Below, piece by piece: positions 9,092 through 18,698 of a stretch of DNA of 48,200 bases (its first letter is position 1; each line of letters opens with the position of its first letter). The stretch is taken from the NCBI GenBank assembly GCA_034659915.1, contig JAYEID010000018.1, positions 1 through 48,200 of the forward strand, written 5' to 3'. The position numbers were made by a program, and so were the translations under genes. The stretch comes from Patescibacteria group bacterium. Its GTDB lineage: Bacteria; Patescibacteriota; WWE3; JAUXAW01; JAYEID01. Below the pieces are notes generated by a model. It saw nothing but the letters and a program-made list of their open reading frames with translations, was not told where the DNA came from and did no database searches.

Positions 9092-9457
9092 CTACTTTTG
9101 TTCTTTAACTTTTAGTGCTCTCTTGCCCACACGTCCACGAAGATAGTAAAGCTTTGAACGACGTGCTTTACCTTTCTTTAATACCTCTAAATCCTTTAAT
9201 TTAGGTGAAAACAAGGGGAAAATCCTCTCCACACCAATATTGCCAGTACTAATCTTGCGCACCGTAAAGGTTTTGTAATCCTCTTTGCCCTTTATAGCGA
9301 TAACTACTCCCGTAAAGTCTTGAACCCGAGTTTTGTCATCTTCAGTAATTTCCCAACTTACTTTGACCAGATCCCCGGGACCAAAGGAAGGAATCTCTTT
9401 TTTTTCGGGCTTGTTCTCAGACACAGATTTTTTATCTTTCTTCTCTTCGTTTTCCAT
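9092..9457 (-). CDS. rplS: 50S ribosomal protein L19
   Basis: A 121-aa L19. A charged N-terminal extension (about residues 1-25, rich in Lys and Glu) precedes the conserved core [50 protein letters not shown] and [19 protein letters not shown]. It sits at the 30S-50S interface of the ribosome. It heads a minus-strand unit with yraN and the 8387 gene. There is no Shine-Dalgarno sequence. The promoter at 9468-9497 places the predicted start only about 4 nt upstream of the ATG, so the mRNA may be leaderless. Confidence 0.95.
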
Positions 9458-9467
9458 TGTGGGCGTT

Positions 9468-9497
9468 ATTCTAGCATTAAAAGGGGAATTATGGCAA
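9468..9497 (-). promoter_or_regulatory. Promoter of rplS (near-leaderless)
   Basis: Reading the minus strand: TTGCCA, an 18-nt spacer, then TAGAAT. The -10 box ends about 10 nt before the L19 start codon, which leaves almost no leader. Confidence 0.6.
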
Positions 9498-9660
9498 ATG
9501 GGATGGCGAATAAGGAATACTGAATAATAAATAAGGAAGAGAAATTAACTAGAGAATTCTTTAAGGTTTCAGAACCGAATCCCTAAAGGTTTCGGTAGAA
9601 GGACTAAAGGATAAGAGATGAGAACTTGCTTATTCTATAAAACTTCTTTAAACCAGGAGT

Positions 9661-9681
9661 ATCTAGAGGCAGCCTCTAGAT
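9661..9681. repeat. 21-nt palindrome
   Basis: ATCTAGAGGC-a-GCCTCTAGAT, perfect 10-bp arms. It lies in the otherwise featureless 9498-9839 stretch upstream of the 9840 gene and could be an operator or a leader hairpin. Confidence 0.6.
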
Positions 9682-9839
9682 AAACCTGTGATAAAAGCAA
9701 ATAAGAGTACTGTTTGTGCTACAAATTGGCTACGAATAAATAAACTTTCTTTGCTGTTGCAAAATAGTTGTAAACAGAGTACCCTTTGGGTAGGTTCTAA
9801 AATTTTTCCCTAAAGGAAACTAACAAAAAAAGGAGAGCA

Positions 9840-10163
9840 GTGACCACGGAACCAATCTTTAAGCGTATGCACCCTGCCGAGGACGAAGACACTTTTCAAA
9901 TTAATTTTGGAAGTGTACAAGAATGTGTCCGTATAATAAAGAAAAGATCAAATCAATGGGAGTTAAAAGATACAGAACTAGCAATACGGAGGACGCTCAT
10001 CCACTTGGAAGAATATAGCAACTTGACCCTGTGGCGGGAAGTTTACATTCTTGTTTGTTTGTATCCCGAATACCTGGGCCGGGAACTGGATCTCCCAACT
10101 CCTGCAACTTTACGTAATGCAATTCGTATAACCTTAGCCCGAGCAATCGCTGCGCAGATGTAA
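9840..10163 (+). CDS. Hypothetical small protein, 107 aa
   Basis: An orphan, mostly helical soluble protein without a recognised family; DAEDEDTFQINFGSVQECVRIIKK-like acidic N-terminus, then Trp/Glu-rich helices ending in a basic RNAIRITLARAIAAQM tail. The GTG start is set by the ribosome site AAAAAAGGAG six nt upstream. It ends at a strong terminator (10171-10212). It marks the left edge of the hairpin-dense island, but its own base composition is closer to the AT-rich backbone than to the island genes. Confidence 0.6.
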   Translation: MTTEPIFKRMHPAEDEDTFQINFGSVQECVRIIKKRSNQWELKDTELAIRRTLIHLEEYSNLTLWREVYILVCLYPEYLGRELDLPTPATLRNAIRITLARAIAAQM

Positions 10164-10170
10164 ATTACAC

Positions 10171-10212
10171 AGCCGCTAGATCTAAGCGCAACTTAGCCTA
10201 GCGGCTATTTTT
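10171..10212 (+). terminator. Intrinsic terminator after the 9840 gene
   Basis: AGCCGCTAG-at-CTAAG-cgcaa-CTTAG-c-CTAGCGGCT followed by ATTTTT. Confidence 0.9.
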
Positions 10213-10231
10213 GTAGAAACCACCAACCCGT

Positions 10232-10260
10232 TTGACATATATAGGACAGTATTATATAAT
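10232..10260 (+). promoter_or_regulatory. Perfect-consensus promoter of candidate ncRNA 1
   Basis: TTGACA, exactly 17 nt, then TATAAT: a full match to the vegetative sigma consensus. No open reading frame follows at a suitable distance, so the product is probably a non-coding RNA. Confidence 0.85.
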
Positions 10261-10266
10261 TAAATT

Positions 10267-10378
10267 GTAGCTTAGAGAACGCAATTTAGCGGCCGAAAGC
10301 CTGTGGGGGAGAGATGACAAGTAGAGGTAGGATACTTGTCTTACAGAGCTTTTTTGCTCAATTCCCCACAGACTTTTG
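10267..10378 (+). ncRNA. Candidate structured ncRNA 1 (~110 nt)
   Basis: The predicted transcript begins about 7 nt after the perfect promoter. The first hairpin is AAATTG..CAATTT. Then comes a Y-shaped fold: outer stem CTGTGGGGGA (10301-10310) with TTCCCCACAG (10362-10371), enclosing GACAAGTA/TACTTGTC and GAGC-tttttt-GCTC. ACTTTTGTT follows the outer stem and could terminate transcription. I could not match it to 6S, SRP, tmRNA or RNase P. A second promoter begins 30 nt further on. Confidence 0.6.
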
Positions 10379-10400
10379 TTCACTAGAAAGTATCTTTAAA

Positions 10401-10429
10401 TTGACTAATATAAGATACTGTGATATACT
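10401..10429 (+). promoter_or_regulatory. Promoter of candidate ncRNA 2
   Basis: TTGACT, 17-nt spacer, TATACT. It lies directly downstream of candidate ncRNA 1. Confidence 0.7.
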
Positions 10430-10435
10430 ATAAGT

Positions 10436-10715
10436 GTGTTGAAGAGAAAAGCACAGAAGAAGGATGATCGCGGGAAAAGAGAAGGTCACAGAACAAAAGG
10501 AAGATGATCACGGAAAAGTGTGCACAATTTAAAAACTTAGCTTAATTCTAACCCCTCACCATACAGCGCAGGGTGTACCCTAACTAGGAGAGAGGCGGTT
10601 CGCGGACTTCACCGTGAACTTTAGAGCTTAAAGAGGCTCTGCTTTAGAGAAGATGCGACCCCTACCCGTCACGCTTAGCGTGAAGCGTTATCTCCTTTGG
10701 AGTGGAGCCTTTTTT
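10436..10715 (+). ncRNA. Candidate structured ncRNA 2 (~280 nt)
   Basis: It begins at the predicted start of the 10401-10429 promoter. A purine-rich 5' part contains two copies of GATGATC followed by GCGG or ACGG (about 10462 and 10504). A structured 3' part has TCACGC-tta-GCGTGA and a closing stem GGCTC (10635-10639)/GAGCC (10705-10709) that runs straight into T6 (10710-10715), an intrinsic terminator. No convincing reading frame is present. I could not match it to a known RNA family. Alternatively it is a long attenuated leader of the gene at 11097. Confidence 0.5.
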
Positions 10716-10765
10716 GATTGTTTCTTAGGGAGTTTCTGAACGAGCTTAGAAACAATCAATTTCGA

Positions 10766-10784
10766 TCCCGACTATTGGTCGGGA
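10766..10784. repeat. TCCCGA/TCGGGA palindrome, copy 2
   Basis: TCCCGAC-tattg-GTCGGGA. Same family as at 215-232. It lies between ncRNA 2 and the 11097 gene. The rest of 10716-11096 holds further hairpins (GATTGTTTCT/AGAAACAATC; TAGGTA/TACCTA) but no gene I can support. Confidence 0.7.
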
Positions 10785-11096
10785 GAGAAATCAGAAAGCT
10801 TGAGGTTTCTCGGAAGACCTCGAAACGGGCCTTAACTTAACGGAAAGGATTTGTGCTGATTTGGAAAGGATTTACGCGAAAAAGACATGCACATTTACAT
10901 TAATTCTTGCCGCAAGCAGATTGGGAACAACAACTTGTTCTCAGCCCGCTTGCGGTGAGGTAGGTAAGCTAAGAAGCATACCTACTTTGGGGAAGACCAC
11001 AAGGCGGAAACATGCATTGAAAAAAGGGGATGGAAAATTCTGCTCACCACAGGCCATCGTAAGGGCAATAGGGTGAGTGGAGAAGGAGTAAGAAAA

Positions 11097-11513
11097 ATGT
11101 TTATGCGGTTCGTGAAAGTCACACTGATAGTTGCGTGGCTTTGCGCCACGTTCCACAGCATTTTGTACCTGGCGGACCCAGTGGAATTGGGTCCGCTAAC
11201 CGTCGCCCTTATGAGCCTCGGCTCGCCGCTTCTGGCGGCAGCAGCCGCTGCACTGATCGTCCACGACAAGTGGGCGAAAAGGGCTCACAGAGCAGAAGAT
11301 GCGGTAGCCGCCCTGTTTTGGGATGCGCGCCAGAACGCACTCCTGCGCAATATCTTTTCGCGCAAGAAGCGCGGCATTGATGCGGCGGAGAGGGATTGGT
11401 CCCTCCTCCGCCGGATTATTCTGGCGATAAGTGCTCTTCGCGGAGAAGACAGCCCGCTCCGTGAGGAGTTTCAGCGTTGGAAGGAACTCGAACGCGAGTT
11501 CCCTCTAGGATAG
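11097..11513 (+). CDS. Island membrane protein, 138 aa, unknown
   Basis: The first of four GC-rich orphan genes in the island. Two membrane segments (about residues 5-22, FVKVTLIVAWLCATFHSI, and residues 33-56, rich in Leu and Ala) are followed by a basic, amphipathic cytosolic tail ending in RWKELEREFPLG. I recognise no family. I chose the ATG at 11097 because AGAAGGAG lies about 9 nt upstream; the in-frame start at 11073 has no such site. Codon use (GCG, GTC, CTC, CGC) is unlike the AT-rich backbone and suggests transfer. A hairpin GTTCCGAGG/CCTCGGAAC follows the stop. Confidence 0.7.
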   Translation: MFMRFVKVTLIVAWLCATFHSILYLADPVELGPLTVALMSLGSPLLAAAAAALIVHDKWAKRAHRAEDAVAALFWDARQNALLRNIFSRKKRGIDAAERDWSLLRRIILAISALRGEDSPLREEFQRWKELEREFPLG

Positions 11514-11633
11514 GACAGCGTTCCGAGGTCCTTCCCCCCTCGGAACCACAAGGTTTAGAAGCTATTTGGGTATATCCCAAATATGTTGTACCTTGCCCAA
11601 TGGCAAAAACAACAATTCCGATTCACCGGAATG

Positions 11634-11716
11634 CTTCCTCTCTCCGAGCAACTTTCGGTGTATCAATAATTTAGTTTATTGGTATACCAGAAGAAGGTGG
11701 TTCGGATCGGAGGAAG
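11634..11716 (+). other. Y-shaped hairpin element Y2
   Basis: Outer stem CTTCCTC/GAGGAAG encloses two hairpins: CCGA..TCGG, and a CAATAA/TTATTG arm at about 11664-11686. It lies downstream of the 11097 gene, where the rest of 11514-11740 also carries hairpins (ATTTGGGTATATCCCAAAT; ATTCCG/CGGAAT). Confidence 0.5.
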
Positions 11717-11740
11717 ACACAAGCAATAACCAATCTTAAA

Positions 11741-11880
11741 TTATTCGCGTAAATTCGTGTTTATAAAAGACAAAATACCGTATTAATTCGCGTTAATGAG
11801 CAATATAAATTTTCGCGTTTTTTCGCGTTATCAAAAGAAGAATACATTATTTTTTCGCGTATTTTAGCGTTTTGCTCTTT
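11741..11880. repeat. AT-rich cluster of TTCGCG(T) motifs
   Basis: At least five TTCGCG motifs plus TTCGTG and TAGCG variants at short, irregular spacing in AT-rich DNA between two hairpin-dense stretches. It looks iteron-like or like a degenerate repeat array. Related CGCTAATTTACGC-type sequence occurs at 16150-16430 near the other edge of the island. Confidence 0.5.
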
Positions 11881-11905
11881 AACAACTTAATATCTTTAAG
11901 CTCAT

Positions 11906-11928
11906 CATCCTTCGACAAGCTCAGGATG
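11906..11928. repeat. CATCCTTCGACAAGCTCAGG repeat, copy 1
   Basis: Hairpin CATCCT/AGGATG with a TCGACAAGCTC loop. A related inverted copy (CCCTGAGCCTGTCGAAAGG) lies at 28414-28432. Confidence 0.6.
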
Positions 11929-11943
11929 GTGGGTTTGAAGATA

Positions 11944-12506
11944 CTGCTAGTCTTACATTAGCAGTAAATATCTTCGAAGGAGGCAAAATCGGCTATCAGC
12001 GTTCGGCACTCCGCTTTCCGCAGGAAAGAAGGAGTAGCGAGCTTCAGCTCGCGCCCCCTAACTGCTGGTAACTGTTTTGCCTTCTTCGAGGGCGAGGTTT
12101 CTTCCGCCGAATGGCGGATAATCTCCACCTCTGCGCTTTCCGAGGCCACACCGCCCCCACCATAGGGTTGTGATGTGGATAGGAGGCGCGCAGAGCAAAT
12201 GGAGAGCTCCTTCTCAGAGCGAAGCTTGCTTTAGCAGATGACAGTTGGGGTGTAAGCAATCCCCATCTGCCCGTTCATCTGTGCTTGAAAGCATAATTCA
12301 TATGAGAAAAGAAAGCTGACCTCTTAGAAGGTCGAGTTCCGTGCGCGTTAACCACGGATAGGGTGATCAACCTGAATATAATATGAAGCTTGAAGTTGAA
12401 GCGGGCAATGTCCAAAAACTTCCGGTGTAAGCTACCGTGATAGCTAGTCCCGAACAGTTCGGGTCGAAAGTCCTTGGCGAAATGCGCCAAGGCCGGGATT
12501 GTCATC
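11944..12506 (+). ncRNA. Structured leader A (upstream of the 12537 gene)
   Basis: A dense series of stems. CGAAGGAGGCAAAA pairs with TTTTGCC..CTTCG; others are GCGAGC/GCTCGC, TCCGCC/GGCGGA, CTCTGCGC/GCGCAGAG, and CCTTGGCG/CGCCAAGG near the end. It shares collinear blocks with leader B (13660-14100): GCCTTCTTCGAGGGCG (12079-12094), GACCTCTT-GAAGGTCG (12318-12334), TTCCGTGC/CACGGATA, GGTGATCAACC (12362-12372) and AGCTTGAAGTTGAAGCGGGC (12387-12406), the last closed by AACTTCC. The last block lies 131 nt before the start codon, almost the same as in leader B. It is probably a structured 5' RNA; regulatory function is inferred only. Confidence 0.65.
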
Positions 12507-12536
12507 CTGCTATAACCCTAAGGGAGGTTTTAATAA

Positions 12537-13232
12537 ATGGCAAAAGTGTATCAGTACTTCTATGTTCGCGAACTAGGGTCCGGTGACGCGCACACAGTTA
12601 CCGGTACGATCGAGGCGGAAGCGGAAGAAGAAGCGCGGGAGCAGATGATGTCGCTCCCGACGCAAAACCGCGCGGGAGACTACGCGCGAGTGTGCTACCG
12701 CCCAGAGGGCGGTAGCTGGAAGCAACTCAAGTCAGTGGCTCGGGCGATTGACTTGCCCGAGACAACCCCCGGCCCTTTGGGCCGGTTCTCCCAGATGTGG
12801 TGCAACGCAATCTGGGCCAAAGAGATGGGGTACATCCGCACGGTCGTTTGTCCTGAATGCGGTAGCCCCATCGTTCGCGCCAATAAGTACTACTTGAAAT
12901 GCACAAACTGCGGCAAACGCGGACTGGCGGGGAGATTCGATTTCTCGCCGGCCTTCAAGGATGAAGTCCGGGCCCTCGCACCGGAAGCGCCCGAGTGCGT
13001 GATTCCGGGATCGGTGCCTTTGGTCGGGATGCACACCCAAGGTGGGATCATTGGTGTGCAAGTTCTTTGGCCAACGGGGGAGACGTACCGCGGTGGTGAG
13101 TACCACAATAAGTGGTACCGCATTCACCTCGGGTTGGAGGCCGAGTTCGATTCCTGCGTCCGTCCGGAGGATCTAGACGCGGAGGATCTCGAATTTGGCG
13201 AGAAGGTGACGCGACACGGCATACGCGAGTAA
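12537..13232 (+). CDS. Island zinc-ribbon protein, 231 aa, unknown
   Basis: GC-rich orphan gene. The N-terminal region (MAKVYQYFYVRELGSGDAHTVTGT) could be a small alpha-beta domain. A zinc ribbon CPECGSPIVRANKYYLKCTNCG lies near residues 105-126 (CxxC-x14-CxxC). The C-terminal half has Trp and Gly motifs and an acidic stretch SCVRPEDLDAEDLEFGE. Nucleic-acid or protein binding through the ribbon is plausible but not shown. The ribosome site AAGGGAGG is 8 nt before the ATG. It is preceded by leader A and followed by the Y3 hairpin element. Codon use is strongly GC-biased compared with flanking housekeeping genes. Confidence 0.75.
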   Translation: MAKVYQYFYVRELGSGDAHTVTGTIEAEAEEEAREQMMSLPTQNRAGDYARVCYRPEGGSWKQLKSVARAIDLPETTPGPLGRFSQMWCNAIWAKEMGYIRTVVCPECGSPIVRANKYYLKCTNCGKRGLAGRFDFSPAFKDEVRALAPEAPECVIPGSVPLVGMHTQGGIIGVQVLWPTGETYRGGEYHNKWYRIHLGLEAEFDSCVRPEDLDAEDLEFGEKVTRHGIRE

Positions 13233-13253
13233 AATTTCCCTGGATTTCCCTGG

Positions 13254-13337
13254 GTTGCTGACGCCCTGTTCACAAGTTCAGTCAGGTTGATGCTTGCCTG
13301 GTCTGCCAGCCGGCGGACGAAGAAGCTCCTCAGCAAC
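13254..13337 (+). other. Y-shaped hairpin element Y3
   Basis: Outer stem GTTGCTGA (13254-13261)/TCAGCAAC (13330-13337) encloses CAGG..CCTG and GTCTGCC-agcc-GGCGGAC. It starts 21 nt after the stop of the 12537 gene. Confidence 0.6.
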
Positions 13338-13409
13338 GGGTTTTAACCCTTTGAGGGATGGAGGGGCGGCAGAACAGAATATGCCCCGCCCGTTGCGCTA
13401 GAAAAGTTC

Positions 13410-13463
13410 TTCAGAGGAAAGCCAAGATCTTTGGCTTTTGGGGATACTTTCCCCTCCTCTGAA
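13410..13463 (+). other. Y-shaped hairpin element Y4
   Basis: Outer stem TTCAGAGGA/TCCTCTGAA (9 bp) encloses AAGCCAA..TTGGCTT and GGGGA-tactt-TCCCC. Confidence 0.65.
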
Positions 13464-13482
13464 TGAACATTGTTTCTCAGCT

Positions 13483-13544
13483 TCCGGAAAGAGTTAACCC
13501 TGATCTAGGGATCACATTTTAATAATGTGATAACTCTTTCCGGA
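13483..13544 (+). other. Y-shaped hairpin element Y5
   Basis: Outer stem TCCGGAAAGAGTTA/TAACTCTTTCCGGA (14 bp, perfect) encloses CCCT-gatct-AGGG and CACATT..AATGTG. It is followed by CGGAGCTTCTTTGAG, similar to the tail of Y7. Confidence 0.7.
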
Positions 13545-13589
13545 GCTTCTTTGAGTTTTGAACCAAATTGTTCAAGACTGGAAGAAGCT

Positions 13590-13658
13590 TGCGCCAATTC
13601 CCTAAAGCTAAGCTTTGGGACTTGGATTTTTAAAGCTTAGCTTTTTTTCCTTGGCGCA
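13590..13658 (+). other. Y-shaped hairpin element Y6
   Basis: Outer stem TGCGCCAA/TTGGCGCA encloses TCCC-t-AAAGC-taa-GCTTT-GGGA and AAAGC-tta-GCTTT. It lies immediately upstream of leader B. Confidence 0.6.
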
Positions 13659-13659
13659 G

Positions 13660-14100
13660 ATACTTCGAAGGGTGGCTTTTTGTTAATTAGTGAGCTAGTT
13701 AGCAGAGAGCCTTCTTCGAGGGCGCGGTTTCCAAGAATCCTCTGATTCCGAGACAAAAATCGGAACGCAAAAACAGAGGAGCCCTTTCCAAGGGTGAACG
13801 GTGGCGAGCGCCTTGACGAGGATATAAACCCGTCAAGCAACCACGCTCAGCGTGGGGTACGCGAAGACCCACCACCGAGAGGAATGGAAACCCGACCTCT
13901 TTGAAGGTCGTTTTCCGTGCACGGTAGTCACGGATAAGGTGATCAACCCGAAAAAATATGGAGCTTGAAGTTGAAGCGGGCTTAGGCCCAATAACTTCCA
14001 CCGAGCGGGTGTAAAACGTCAGGCCCAGTAGTGGCTGAAAGACCCCGACCAAATGTGTCGAGGGCCCGTCCGCATCGCCACGCGGGACGGTCCGAGAAAA
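13660..14100 (+). ncRNA. Structured leader B (upstream of the 14113 gene)
   Basis: Second copy of the leader module. Shared blocks with leader A, in the same order: GCCTTCTTCGAGGGCG (13709-13724), GACCTCTT-GAAGGTCG (13894-13910), TTCCGTGC (13913-13920)/CACGGATA (13929-13936), GGTGATCAACC (13938-13948) and AGCTTGAAGTTGAAGCGGGC (13962-13981). The last block lies 132 nt before the start codon. Between blocks the arms differ in sequence but still pair (CCTCTG/CAGAGG, TTGACG/CGTCAA, CCACGC/GCGTGG). This suggests conserved structure with variable arms. Confidence 0.65.
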
Positions 14101-14112
14101 AGGAGAATAAGA

Positions 14113-14556
14113 ATGGCGAAGATGGTAGGAGTTGAACTAATGACCATGAGCAGTGACCCGGGATACGTACCGTCCAGCGGTTGGACGGAGGCCATTTTGG
14201 TCTCCGCCGACGCCGTAGCGGACTGCGCCGGAGAAGAGGAAGCCCTTTGGCTGATCGAGGGTGAGAAAATTACACCAGAGGACTTGGAAGATGTAAAGGT
14301 CAGCACGCGTCGGCGCGGCGTGTGCAACTACGAGTACTCCAAGGGGATCATGAAAGTCCCTGAGGGGATGGCCGTCGTGCAGAAGGAAATGATTGATATC
14401 TGCACGCGTGACCAGGTTTACCGGCGTGCTTGGATTGTCAACGAGGAATCCCTCGTTGAACTTTACCGCCAGCGCGCTAAGAGGTACAAGGAACTCATCA
14501 ATGAGTTCCTTGAAAAGAAACAAGGGTTCGCTGACCTCCGCAAGGAGGTCCGCTAG
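14113..14556 (+). CDS. Island protein, 147 aa, unknown
   Basis: GC-rich orphan gene without a recognised domain. It looks globular: an N-terminal part with MTMSSDPGYVPSSGWTEAILVSADAVADCAGEEE, a Cys (RRGVCNYEYSKG) in the middle, and a helical basic C-terminus (YRQRAKRYKELINEFLEKKQG) that could form a coiled coil. The start at 14113 has the ribosome site AAAAAGGAG 7 nt upstream; an in-frame ATG at 14053 lies inside leader B and lacks one. It is preceded by leader B and followed by a hairpin (14565-14603) and the Y7 element. Confidence 0.7.
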   Translation: MAKMVGVELMTMSSDPGYVPSSGWTEAILVSADAVADCAGEEEALWLIEGEKITPEDLEDVKVSTRRRGVCNYEYSKGIMKVPEGMAVVQKEMIDICTRDQVYRRAWIVNEESLVELYRQRAKRYKELINEFLEKKQGFADLRKEVR

Positions 14557-14564
14557 AATTAAAA

Positions 14565-14603
14565 AACCGCAAGGGGGATCTCCGATCCAATCGGAGTGCG
14601 GTT
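14565..14603 (-). terminator. Hairpin with T-run on the minus strand
   Basis: AACCGC..GCGGTT with inner CTCCGA/TCGGAG. On the minus strand it is followed by T6. There is A-rich sequence on both sides, so it may act as a boundary hairpin in both directions. Confidence 0.5.
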
Positions 14604-14632
14604 GAAAAAAATACCCCCAGATCTCTCAGCAT

Positions 14633-14705
14633 CCGAGAGAAGTCTAAGTCCCGTTCGGGGACAGTTCACTTACCTACCCAGGTATTTGAGCCAGACTTCT
14701 CTCGG
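14633..14705 (+). other. Y-shaped hairpin element Y7
   Basis: Outer stem CCGAGAGAAGTCT/AGACTTCTCTCGG (13 bp, perfect) encloses GTCCCG-ttc-GGGGAC and ACCT-accc-AGGT. It is followed by AGCTTTCTCGGGTTTTTG, a terminator-like tail similar to that of Y5. Confidence 0.7.
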
Positions 14706-14794
14706 AGCTTTCTCGGGTTTTTGATTTGATTGCATAGAAATCAAGAATCAGAAAAAGTTCGGACAGCCATGCCCCAAGAATTAAGGAGGTTAAA

Positions 14795-15409
14795 ATGGCA
14801 CAAGAAAAGGGGCGCTTGGACCGTGCCCAGGAACTGTATGATCATGTACAGGAACTGGGAAAAGAGATTCGGGAGGAGTACGGCTCCTTCCGGCGCCGGG
14901 TAAGGGCTACGGTCCTGGCGAAGCAGGAACCCGTAAGGGTCCCGCGCCGCGAAGAATGCCCCGAATGCGGGACCGTGGTGCGATCCCACCCCGCGGGCAT
15001 GGGCCGCAGGTACGAGTGCCCGTGCGGATGGGAATATTTCAAGCGGGAGACCACTCGACTGAAGCAAACCCACCACACTGCCAGCCCCGACGGCCGGCGA
15101 CCTGCCGGTTATTCGGAGCGCTTGGTCAGGGAGGACATCTCAACGGGTATGCCCCCTGTAGAAATCCCGGCCCAGCAAAACGCCGCGTCTAAACTGGGCG
15201 GCAATCGCTGGGAGTCGGCTTTCCCAGCCCTTAGCTGGGGTTATTTAAAGTCCCCACCAAGAGGTGACTGGGGACTGGACCGCTGGGTTGAAAGAGCTCA
15301 GCAGATGGTTGAGGAACTGGAAGCAATTCCAGTGCCTCCGGATGAAATCCCGGAAGGCCTATCTCCGGACGAGCTGCTCGAGTGGGCAGCCAAGTTTCCG
15401 GAGAAATAG
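14795..15409 (+). CDS. Island zinc-ribbon protein, 204 aa, unknown
   Basis: GC-rich orphan gene. An N-terminal helical region (about residues 1-45, possible coiled coil, AQELYDHVQELGKEIREEY) is followed by a zinc ribbon CPECGTVVRS..YECPCGWEYF (about residues 55-80, CxxC-x15-CxC). A Pro-rich linker leads to an acidic helical tail (MVEELEAIPVPPDEIPEG). Nucleic-acid binding is possible from the ribbon; function is unknown. The AAGGAGG site lies 5 nt before the ATG. It is unrelated in sequence to the 12537 protein apart from the ribbon. It is flanked by Y7 upstream and hairpins downstream. Confidence 0.75.
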   Translation: MAQEKGRLDRAQELYDHVQELGKEIREEYGSFRRRVRATVLAKQEPVRVPRREECPECGTVVRSHPAGMGRRYECPCGWEYFKRETTRLKQTHHTASPDGRRPAGYSERLVREDISTGMPPVEIPAQQNAASKLGGNRWESAFPALSWGYLKSPPRGDWGLDRWVERAQQMVEELEAIPVPPDEIPEGLSPDELLEWAAKFPEK

Positions 15410-15451
15410 GGGTCTAACCGGTCAAACGAGGGGACATTGCCCCTAACCCTG

Positions 15452-15467
15452 TCCCGATTTATCGGGA
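15452..15467. repeat. TCCCGA/TCGGGA palindrome, copy 3
   Basis: TCCCGAT-tt-ATCGGGA nested inside AACCCT..AGGGTT. It follows the stop of the 14795 gene and may serve as its 3' hairpin. Confidence 0.65.
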
Positions 15468-15610
15468 AGTAAAGGGTTGAAAATAAACGGATTGTGGAAC
15501 AAATAGCTGACAGCGCCGCAGGGACTAGCGCACAAAAGCTACCGCAATCTAAGGAGCGACTACCGGCTCGGACAAGAAGGTAGAGGGGTAAATTAAATGT
15601 TCCAGATGCA

Positions 15611-15684
15611 CAGTTGAGGGGTTTTCTTCCGCAAAGTCCAGGAAGAGTTTAACCCTAAAGGAACTACCCGACGGAGTTCAACTG
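15611..15684 (+). other. Y-shaped hairpin element Y8 (weaker)
   Basis: Outer stem CAGTTGA/TCAACTG encloses CTTCC-n10-GGAAG; the second arm is less clear. It is followed by the tight hairpin CCCCC-tt-CGGGGG. The rest of 15410-16061 shows no supportable gene. Confidence 0.4.
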
Positions 15685-16061
15685 CCCCCTTCGGGGGTTA
15701 AAGCAGGTCTTGAGAGCTTTGCGTTCATGCGAGCTTTCTTGGTGTATTTTGATGAGCCGTCATCAATTTACCTAACACATACCGATGTGTTGCCTTCTCT
15801 CTTAGTTCATCAAGAGATTGGTGGATTAAGACAGAAGGTTTTAAGTTCGGCTCCGCCAGCTGGCGAGTCAAAACCAAAAGACTTTTTCGCAGAACATTGC
15901 GAACTGGTCACCTCAACCCTACTTCTCTACTCTTAAATTCTTAAATATAAATTCTTAAACACCTTGAGAGCAGAAATGTGGGAACTCTGAAAATGCACAA
16001 GTAAGAAATTATACAATGCACTGTGCACTGTATATAGTACATTGAAATGTACTAAATAGGG

Positions 16062-16151
16062 GTCCGCCTCTTAGCCTTTCGTTAGGGTCCCGATTTTCGC
16101 CTCCTCCAGTTGGAGGATGGCGGATTCGGGAGAGAGGTTCAAGGGGCGGAC
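16062..16151 (+). other. Y-shaped hairpin element Y9
   Basis: Outer stem GTCCGCC (16062-16068)/GGCGGAC (16145-16151) encloses a CCTttcgttAGG hairpin and a long arm CCCGA..CGCC..CCTCC-agtt-GGAGG..GGCG..TCGGG. Confidence 0.6.
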
Positions 16152-16181
16152 TTCTGAATACGCGAATAAACGCCAATAATA

Positions 16182-16515
16182 AATGGTCGGAACCTTACGC
16201 TAATTTACACAAATAAGAAAGAGAGTATAAATGCAATTGTAGTATTTGTGCAGATGTTTTACGTAGACTCTATCGTCGTTTCGACAAGTCGGCACTACTT
16301 CAGAGTGACCTCTATTTTGATTTCTCAAAAGACTTCGAAAAGGGAAAAAAATACATGGTCGGAACTCTACGCTAATTTACGCAGATAAGAAGGATGGTAT
16401 AAATTCTATTGGTAGGATTTACGCGGACGTTAGAAATAAAATTCCTAAATCGGAAAAGGAAAAAGGAAGATTCTATCGTCACGATATGAATCGTTCCTCC
16501 AGAATGACTCCTCTA
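16182..16515. repeat. Two diverged tandem units, each ending in an AGACTCTATCG element
   Basis: Unit 1 (16182-16316) and unit 2 (16354-16515) both start ATGGTCGGAAC, continue TACGCTAATTTAC and a GTATAAAT segment, and end with the AGA(C/T)TCTATCG..CAGA(G/A)TGAC element (16265-16316 and 16468-16515). Unit 2 has about 30 nt extra. A third copy of the terminal element lies far away at 29581-29628. Confidence 0.7.
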
Positions 16516-16631
16516 TATGCGGAAAACGGAGTGCAGGTACGGAAAGCGGATAACCTATTTTGATTTTTCTCCTGACCAAGTCGAGATCGAAAAGGTTCCG
16601 GCTGAACACTGTCCGCCGGCCGGCAGAGCTG

Positions 16632-18698
16632 TTAGGTGATATGGAGGGAATTGCCTCTTTTGCCTACTTTAACTGTATCCCCTTCCTCAACTTCTTTGCG
16701 AATAATTTTCTCCGAAATAGGATTCTCTATTTCCTTTTGAATAAGGCGCCGTAAGGGGCGCGCACCAAATTCAGGATCAAACCCTTTTTCGGCAAGATAA
16801 TCTTTAGCTGTGTCAGTAATTTCTAGCTCTACTTCTTGTTCTCGTAAGCGCTCCTCAACTTTACTTACTTCCAGCTCAACAATTTTTCGTAAATCTTCCT
16901 TACTAAGAGGATTAAAAATAATAGTTTCATCAATTCGGTTCAAAAACTCGGGTCGAAATGTCTGACGAAGCCGGTTGCTAATTTCTTCCTCAATTTCCTT
17001 CCTTTCCATCCCATCTTCAGCATCCTCCACAAAAGAAATACCCTCTTTCATATCTTGGTAAAACAATTCACTACCCACGTTAGAAGTCATAATAATAATC
17101 GTATTCTTAAAATCAACAGTCTTCCCTTGCCCGCTGGTCAAACGCCCATCCTCAAATATTTGGAGCAGAATATTAAACACACTTGAGTGTGCTTTTTCTA
17201 CCTCGTCCAAGAGAATAACTGAAAAAGGCTTACGGCGAACAACTTCTGTCAATTGACCACCTTCCTCATACCCTACATAACCGGGCGGTGCTCCTACCAT
17301 CCGAGAAACATTGTGCCTTTCTTGATACTCGCTCATGTCTAACCGAACCATTAGATCCTCATTGCCGTAAAGAACATCTGCTAATGCTTTGGTCAGCTCT
17401 GTTTTTCCAACCCCGGTTGGTCCTAGGAAAAGAAAGGTTCCAATAGGTCGGCTCGGGTTCTTTAGACCTGCTCTAGAGCGCCTGATTGCCTCGCTAACCG
17501 ACTTTACCGCATCTTCTTGATCTACAACCCGTTCGTGGATTCTTTCTTCCAAATTAGCCAACTTCTCTTGCTCCTCTTCTGAAAGATCTTCAAGAGGAAT
17601 TCCTGTCATATTAGAAACAATTTCCGCTACATCTTCCTCATCTACTGTTGGGTGTTCTTCCATTTTGGTTTGCCGCCAAATTTCCACCAATTCTTCGCGC
17701 ACACCTTTCAACTCATTTAATTTTTTCTCCAGTTTTTCCTTTTCCTCACCTTTGGCATCAACTAACTGTTCCCTTATTTCCTGAATCTCACTTTCAACCT
17801 GCTTAAGATTTTCTGGTTCTTCAATTGCTTCCAATCGAACCTTCGCACATGCTTCATCCAAAAGATCAACAGCTTTGTCTGGTAAGAAACGGTCCGAAAT
17901 ATAGCGATCCGATAATTTTGCACAAGCAGCTAATGCCTCAGGTGTAATCTCAACTTGGTGATGCTCTGAGTAATGATCTTTCAATCCTCTTAGTATTTTT
18001 ATAGTTTCTTCAGTAGTAGATTCACGAACGAAAACAGGTTGGAACCTTCTTTCTAGTGCACCGTCTTTTTCAATATGCTCTCTGTATTCATCCAAGGTGG
18101 TAGCACCAATAGCACGCAATTCTCCCCGAGCCAAAGGAGGCTTTAATATATTGGCAGCATCAATTGCACCTCGGGCAGCACCTGCTCCCACAATTGTATG
18201 CAACTCATCAATAAACAGTATTATTTGCCCCTCAGCTTTTTGTACCTCTTCAATAGCTTGCTTAAGCCGCTGCTCAAACTGTCCCCGCACACTAGCACCA
18301 GCCAACATCAGGGATATATCTAGGGCAACTATTCTTTTACCTTCTAGTGTTTCCGGCACCTTTCCGTTAGCAATTCGTTGAGCCAATCCTTCAACAATAG
18401 CAGTTTTCCCCACCCCAGGATCACCAATAAGAACAGGATTGTTCTTTGTCCGTCGGGACAAAATATGAATTACTCGTTCAATTTCTTTATCACGACCAAT
18501 TACAGGATCTAGCCTTCCTTCCTCAGCTTCTTTAGTAAGGTCGCGGCCAAACTTGTCTAAAGCAGAGGTCTCCTGAGCTCCAGATTGGAGCTTTGCAAAA
18601 CATTGCTCACAAACATTGACAAACACCGGTCGTCCGTCAACCATTTTTTGAGTTTGAATTTTAGCTGGCCTTTTACCACAGATTTGGCACTGTACCAT
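16632..18698 (-). CDS. ClpE/ClpC-type AAA+ unfoldase with N-terminal zinc finger
   Basis: A 688-aa Hsp100 unfoldase. Residues 1-35 form a CxxC..CxxC zinc finger (C4, C7, C30, C33) in place of the double Clp_N repeat, as in ClpE. AAA1 follows, with Walker A GDPGVGKTA (92-100) and an LDEYREHIEKD segment. A middle coiled-coil (about 310-350) is of the short ClpC/E type, and AAA2 has Walker A GPTGVGKTE (about 420) and Walker B VILLDEVEKAH. The C-terminal ClpB_D2-small domain follows. It is expected to unfold substrates for ClpP, but no clpP is in the window. There is no Shine-Dalgarno site. It borders the island on its right side. Confidence 0.92.
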   Translation of the reverse strand: MVQCQICGKRPAKIQTQKMVDGRPVFVNVCEQCFAKLQSGAQETSALDKFGRDLTKEAEEGRLDPVIGRDKEIERVIHILSRRTKNNPVLIGDPGVGKTAIVEGLAQRIANGKVPETLEGKRIVALDISLMLAGASVRGQFEQRLKQAIEEVQKAEGQIILFIDELHTIVGAGAARGAIDAANILKPPLARGELRAIGATTLDEYREHIEKDGALERRFQPVFVRESTTEETIKILRGLKDHYSEHHQVEITPEALAACAKLSDRYISDRFLPDKAVDLLDEACAKVRLEAIEEPENLKQVESEIQEIREQLVDAKGEEKEKLEKKLNELKGVREELVEIWRQTKMEEHPTVDEEDVAEIVSNMTGIPLEDLSEEEQEKLANLEERIHERVVDQEDAVKSVSEAIRRSRAGLKNPSRPIGTFLFLGPTGVGKTELTKALADVLYGNEDLMVRLDMSEYQERHNVSRMVGAPPGYVGYEEGGQLTEVVRRKPFSVILLDEVEKAHSSVFNILLQIFEDGRLTSGQGKTVDFKNTIIIMTSNVGSELFYQDMKEGISFVEDAEDGMERKEIEEEISNRLRQTFRPEFLNRIDETIIFNPLSKEDLRKIVELEVSKVEERLREQEVELEITDTAKDYLAEKGFDPEFGARPLRRLIQKEIENPISEKIIRKEVEEGDTVKVGKRGNSLHIT

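Follow-up and report, generated by a model that had tools for sequence, protein, structure and literature searches.

Candidate structured RNA leaders with matching 3' elements frame unrelated orphan genes in a lineage-specific insertion of a Patescibacteria genome

Two candidate structured RNAs, leaders A and B, lie directly upstream of two unrelated orphan genes, ORFs A and B, in the window, i.e., the whole 48,200-nt stretch of Patescibacteria group bacterium DNA analyzed here (Table 1). The pair is new, in that it matches no described RNA family, and the island that carries it is very unusual. We consider it roughly an even bet (probability about 0.5) that A and B are large 5' leaders acting in cis, present as two diverged copies, which together with paired 3' elements control how the adjacent gene is translated or how stable its message is. 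The initial annotation had pictured two homologous leaders and nothing beyond them. The homologous pair stands, but the homology continues past the genes into the 3' elements T1-T2, and each leader forms just one end of a unit that was duplicated. Its leader coordinates were likewise close but needed adjustment, since both leaders begin slightly further downstream than proposed and extend to the start codon.

Table 1. Positions in the window of the insertion, its reading frames, predicted promoters and RNA elements.
Feature	Position	Strand	Details
Lineage-specific insertion	9458..16631		7.17 kb, between clpB (16632-18698, - strand) and rplS (9092-9457, - strand)
Predicted sigma-70-type promoter	10232..10260	+	TTGACA-17-TATAAT, perfect (12/12 consensus positions); head of the structured island
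Predicted second promoter-like site	10401..10429	+	TTGACT-17-TATACT, TG ahead of the -10
ORF 0	11097..11513	+	orphan protein, 138 aa; no family or relative
Leader A	11972..12536	+	structured RNA of ~565 nt, up to the ATG of ORF A
Leader A, helix P1	11973..12090	+	5' strand 11973-11989, 3' strand 12074-12090; branched tip
Leader A, 23-nt block	12079..12101	+	GCCTTCTTCGAGGGCGMGGTTTC; 3' strand of P1
Leader A, conserved core	12317..12422	+	H1 12317-12334; H2 12338-12358; GGTGATCAACC 12362-12372; 20-nt block 12387-12406
Leader A, core helix	12392-12397 / 12417-12422	+	GAAGTT / AACTTC
Leader A, hairpin H8	12472..12492	+	loop AAATG
ORF A	12537..13232	+	orphan, 231 aa; CPECG-CTNCG zinc ribbon; SD GGGAGG upstream
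3' element of ORF A	13475..13588	+	T1 (TCTCAGC; stem 13483-13496/13531-13544), then T2 hairpin 13545-13588
Leader B	13663..14112	+	structured RNA of ~450 nt, up to the ATG of ORF B
Leader B, helix P1	13663..13721	+	27 bp, TGAG loop
Leader B, 23-nt block	13709..13731	+	GCCTTCTTCGAGGGCGMGGTTTC
Leader B, conserved core	13893..13998	+	H1 13893-13910; H2 13914-13934; GGTGATCAACC 13938-13948; 20-nt block 13962-13981
Leader B, core helix	13967-13972 / 13993-13998	+	GAAGTT / AACTTC
Leader B, hairpin H8	14043..14063	+	loop AAATG
ORF B	14113..14556	+	orphan, 147 aa
3' element of ORF B	14624..14758	+	T1 (TCTCAGC; stem 14632-14645/14693-14706), then T2 hairpin 14707-14758
ORF C	14795..15409	+	orphan, 204 aa; CPECG-CPCG motif; leader copy absent

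The two leaders share direct repeats on the + strand that follow one another in the same order, as had been claimed: 23 nt at 96% identity (12079-12101 and 13709-13731), 71 nt at 82% (12306-12376 and 13882-13952), and 27 nt at 96% (12380-12406 and 13955-13981). When the two leader intergenic regions were aligned locally, the score was 179, against a maximum of 61 for shuffled sequences, and blastn matched leader A to leader B with E=5e-25 (114 nt at 83%). Of the 20-nt block, the window contains two copies and no others, and 100 shuffles yielded 0 matches to it even with up to 3 mismatches; it ends at 12406 in A and at 13981 in B, placing it 131 and 132 nt before the respective ATGs at 12537 and 14113, exactly as first described. 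Ahead of ORF 0 and ORF C, no alignment rose above shuffles that would indicate a third leader copy. A long hairpin, TGCGCCAA...TTGGCGCA, stands immediately 5' of leader B (13590-13658), and other hairpins precede leader A.

We compared base pairing between the two copies helix by helix. Among the 17 pairs of P1, 11 are the same in A and B, 2 differ by one-sided and 4 by double changes, and 0 are broken; two G-U pairs are common to both copies and others have been gained, which points to pairing at the level of RNA rather than DNA. H2 shows 1 double change with 0 pairs broken, while H8 keeps its loop on changed arms, with 2 double changes and 2 broken pairs in an ungapped alignment. The annotated view that the arms change yet still pair therefore holds for P1 and H2, but only in part for H8, and the 5' halves of the leaders (~12100-12300 and 13732-13875) are too diverged for base-by-base alignment. 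The compensatory changes anticipated at the outset are present, and the retention of pairs through two-sided changes, seen in P1 and in T1, is generally expected of structured RNAs. With two sequences from one genome this covariation is a single comparison, which supports rather than proves the structure. In folding, leader A (11940-12560) reached a z-score of -7.1 against 20 dinucleotide shuffles, and leader B -5.2 against 100. The conserved core folds about as well as shuffled sequence or little better (z-scores between about -0.5 and -2), and a simple hairpin switch may therefore not be its function. That conserved core sequence is located in predicted single-stranded parts hints at tertiary contacts or at an interacting partner.

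Behind each of the two ORFs lies a matching 3' element. T1 opens with TCTCAGC; in both copies its perfect 14-bp stem encloses two hairpins in a three-way junction, and the long hairpin T2 follows immediately. Between A and B, 14/14 pairs of the T1 stem are kept, 6 of them by double changes and 0 broken, and the stem contains no wobble pairs. The sequence similarity of T1-T2 by itself is barely above shuffles (49 vs. 47), and with so marginal a score the claim of homology is based on the common architecture and the compensated stem. As T1-T2 are homologous behind both ORFs, the unit covers both ends of the message, and what was duplicated is, as judged from sequence comparison, leader-ORF-T1-T2.

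The proteins enclosed by these units are unrelated, as the initial annotation had it: the Smith-Waterman score of protein A against protein B was no better than for shuffled sequences (p=0.75). A plain tandem duplication, in which the coding part diverged fast and the ends merely reflect ordinary constraint on UTR hairpins with no specific regulation, would account for the order leader-ORF-T1-T2 being kept in both units and for the MAK with which ORFs A and B both start. However, the proteins retain no residual similarity, whereas the single-stranded leader blocks are 96-100% identical, which indicates a stronger constraint on the leader, and we regard this explanation as quite improbable. No domain, nucleases included, was found in ORFs A, B, and C with Pfam, PHROGs, NCBIfam, or PADLOC, and no convincing relatives of the three were found in 380 genomes of the phylum; matches of ORF C in those genomes (E 0.001-0.01) were rejected, as they covered the zinc ribbon alone. 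AlphaFold models of ORFs A and B, predicted without an alignment, were unusable (mean pLDDT 43 and 38).

Both leaders are placed at a constant distance 5' of a Shine-Dalgarno sequence (SD) and coding start, as would be expected of cis-leaders, the SD being GGGAGG for ORF A and AAGGAG for ORF B. This fixed spacing, together with the same orientation and the matching 3' element on the message, makes a cis-acting leader the most economical reading. The strong predicted promoters near 10232-10429 are the probable origin of transcription, which would then read through both units. At its 5' end each leader would form the long helix P1, followed by a branched middle that varies and by the conserved 3' core, whose spacing to the ribosome-binding site is fixed. 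So folded, it would modulate the translation or the mRNA lifetime of its attached gene. T1-T2 would act at the opposite end of the message by terminating or shielding it, perhaps as sites for RNase III or as a barrier to decay. The leader may also contain a switch. The 23-nt block can alternatively close its own hairpin, GCCTTC-TTC-GAGGGC, and might thus either pair upstream in P1 or form this hairpin; the conservation of GGGC beyond P1 is explained only by the block's use of its own hairpin, which is followed by just three U. Pairing of the SD differs between the copies, being local or with an arm of H1 in leader A and confined to a 3-bp hairpin in leader B, and no conserved sequestration of the SD is obvious across A and B. 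Anti-SD pairing through the CCTCTT of H1, which is present in A only, was dropped as the main mechanism.

The leading alternative is that the leaders are trans-acting structural RNAs cut from a common transcript in the manner of OLE, ROOL, and GOLLD, with ORFs that merely follow the RNA or encode its partners, and with T1 and the long P1-type stems as processing sites. Leaders of 450-565 nt with a conserved 3' core and a variable 5' part recall GOLLD, in which a conserved core is combined with a variable part (PMC12286853). Long double-stranded RNA stems lie between the units, and the local structure resembles that of rRNA and tRNA loci; moreover, GGTGATCAACC presents a GATC palindrome in a loop, comparable to the self-complementary loop tetramers (GGCC/GAUC/AGCU) that mediate the kissing contacts of OLE (PMC12286853). 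Yet the fixed 131/132-nt spacing to an SD-bearing start argues for a link to translation, the 3' ends of A and B carry no terminator-like U-run before the SD, and OLE, ROOL, and GOLLD went unmatched in Rfam. A trans-acting role is in our judgment conceivable but doubtful.

The duplicated units lie in an insertion between clpB and rplS, genes that are adjacent in 8 of the 8 class relatives examined and 7.17 kb apart here. The source genome comprises 806 kb in 26 contigs, with an estimated completeness of 95%, and the window is its contig 18; genome size and relatives suggest a member of the candidate phyla radiation. The GC content at third codon positions (GC3) is ~0.65-0.70 in island genes vs. 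0.33-0.41 in the other genes checked, and the composition of the island ORFs by codon position is coding-like. rplS retains a promoter-like site just 5' of its start (9497-9468). Also within the island are low-GC repeats with many ATTCGCG-like words, at 11742-11871 and, at the right edge, at 16160-16431, where 16175-16258 and 16347-16431 share 80% identity. The palindromic repeat TATCTAGAGGCNGCCTCTAGATAA is found at the left edge of the insertion (9661-9684), in L035 (240-262 and 1101-1123), and in L019 (12569-12593); the two copies in L035 flank an ORF for a transposase of the REP-associated type (272-1048).

An insertion that relatives do not have, in which unrelated ORFs are flanked by homologous ends, could also be composed of mobile cassettes, with the leader and T1-T2 as recombination or retrotransposition signals (attC-like palindromes or intron domains) around exchangeable ORFs. 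Such cassettes would explain why unrelated genes sit between related ends, and the perfect palindromic stem of T1, free of wobble pairs, is compatible with a DNA cruciform; P1, in contrast, contains G-U pairs. No integrase, transposase, or reverse transcriptase was found among the island ORFs tested, terminal repeats of more than 10 nt were not detected on the insertion, the genome holds no third copy, and no intron family was matched at E<=5, nor is there a maturase or homing ORF as in group I/II introns. Only two T1 elements were seen, unlike in an integron cassette array. We therefore hold mobile cassettes to be improbable.

In support of a new RNA, a scan against the 4227 families of Rfam 15, including riboswitches, group I/II introns, OLE, ROOL, GOLLD, HEARO, and others, returned only tRNAs at the gathering cut-off over the whole window. 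At E<=5, the region 11900-14150 gave only chance-level matches to microRNAs and sRNAs, far under the gathering scores; the match to a described family that would have spoken against the original proposal thus did not appear. A covariance model of the leader core, R1, recovered only A and B in the window and no further copy in 380 phylum and 45 class genomes, and the relatives that had been hoped for in related genomes were not forthcoming, an outcome that the initial annotation had listed among those that would count against it. The nearest relative compared belongs to another family of the same order, and this absence may therefore reflect thin sampling. Viral contigs, phages, and plasmids yielded no relatives of the island proteins or, with DNA searches, of the leaders, and two further core patterns had no match in viral contigs. 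Among candidates set aside, matches to a 19-nt block (8 in GTDB genomes and 2 in viral contigs) were isolated, with the other leader blocks absent, and were put down to chance; a match to the 23-nt block in viral contigs (L093:13399) was an unrelated GC-rich hairpin without an R1 match; and a low-score R1 match (L061:12422-12557) lay inside a coding gene.

The leaders resemble GOLLD, ROOL, and OLE in extending over several hundred nucleotides, in having many helices with a core and a variable part, and in being of poorly understood function. They differ in that they have no covariance-model match and in that each is directly 5' of an ORF, at a fixed distance, and paired with a 3' element. GOLLD and ROOL are found on phages and prophages (PMC12286853), whereas the island is neither near a tRNA cluster nor in a recognizable phage. 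With riboswitches, ribosomal-protein leaders, and attenuators, leaders A and B share their position on the same strand just before the SD and ATG and the retention of unpaired blocks beside changing arms, and the 23-nt block, whose two pairings may exclude each other, is reminiscent of long mRNA leaders; at 450-565 nt, however, they are long for this class, they precede orphan genes, and they belong to no Rfam family. HEARO/OMEGA RNA sits upstream of IscB-type genes, and the leaders are similar to it as structured RNAs of hundreds of nucleotides just 5' of an ORF, but there is no Rfam match and no adjacent ORF for an RNA-guided nuclease of the IscB or TnpB kind. Large structured RNAs have been little studied in candidate-phyla bacteria. 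As the genomes of these bacteria are small and compact, a 7-kb stretch that devotes much of its length to folded RNA must either bring a benefit that covers its cost or be a selfish element. It is unusual for unrelated orphan proteins to be bracketed by a conserved RNA on the 5' side and another on the 3' side, and this arrangement has exact, testable boundaries; and if relatives are found, the leaders would define a new RNA family for which a covariance model is ready.

We also scanned the entire 806-kb genome for structure in 150-nt windows with correction for GC. Few sustained structure-dense stretches emerged: the rRNA operon, a tRNA cluster, a GC-rich orphan-gene region (L067, 17-19.6 kb), and the island. 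In the window, z-scores of -4 to -9 cluster at 10.6-16.2 kb, in parts of coding sequences as well. Since structure is high throughout the island, coding parts included, the leaders are not special by stability alone. The excess is present on both strands, and with composition controlled, + is not significantly more structured than - across the island (Wilcoxon p=0.37, 29 windows); a strand bias seen in raw energies was not significant after shuffling and was discarded as proof of selection at the RNA level. Conceivably, though we think it unlikely, the whole insertion is an undescribed RNA-centered element with a ~6-kb transcript structured throughout, built of leader-ORF-tail modules in which the RNA is conserved and the proteins are replaced, the leaders being ornate RNAs.

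Elsewhere in the genome, the GC-rich orphan genes of L067 (G000:C22, 16978-19662) resemble cold-shock-type domains, and one long reading frame there is split by an in-frame TAG at ~18316, which falls centrally within such a domain. These bacteria are known to have insertions in rRNA genes (PMC11270868). The 16S rRNA gene in L031 (G000:C10) contains an intron-like insert at ~14850-15680, whose ORF (14881-15537) looks similar to a LAGLIDADG homing endonuclease, and the 23S rRNA gene carries short, repeat-like, hairpin-flanked inserts at L031 17530-17670, 17730-17900, 18190-18320, and 19760-19870.
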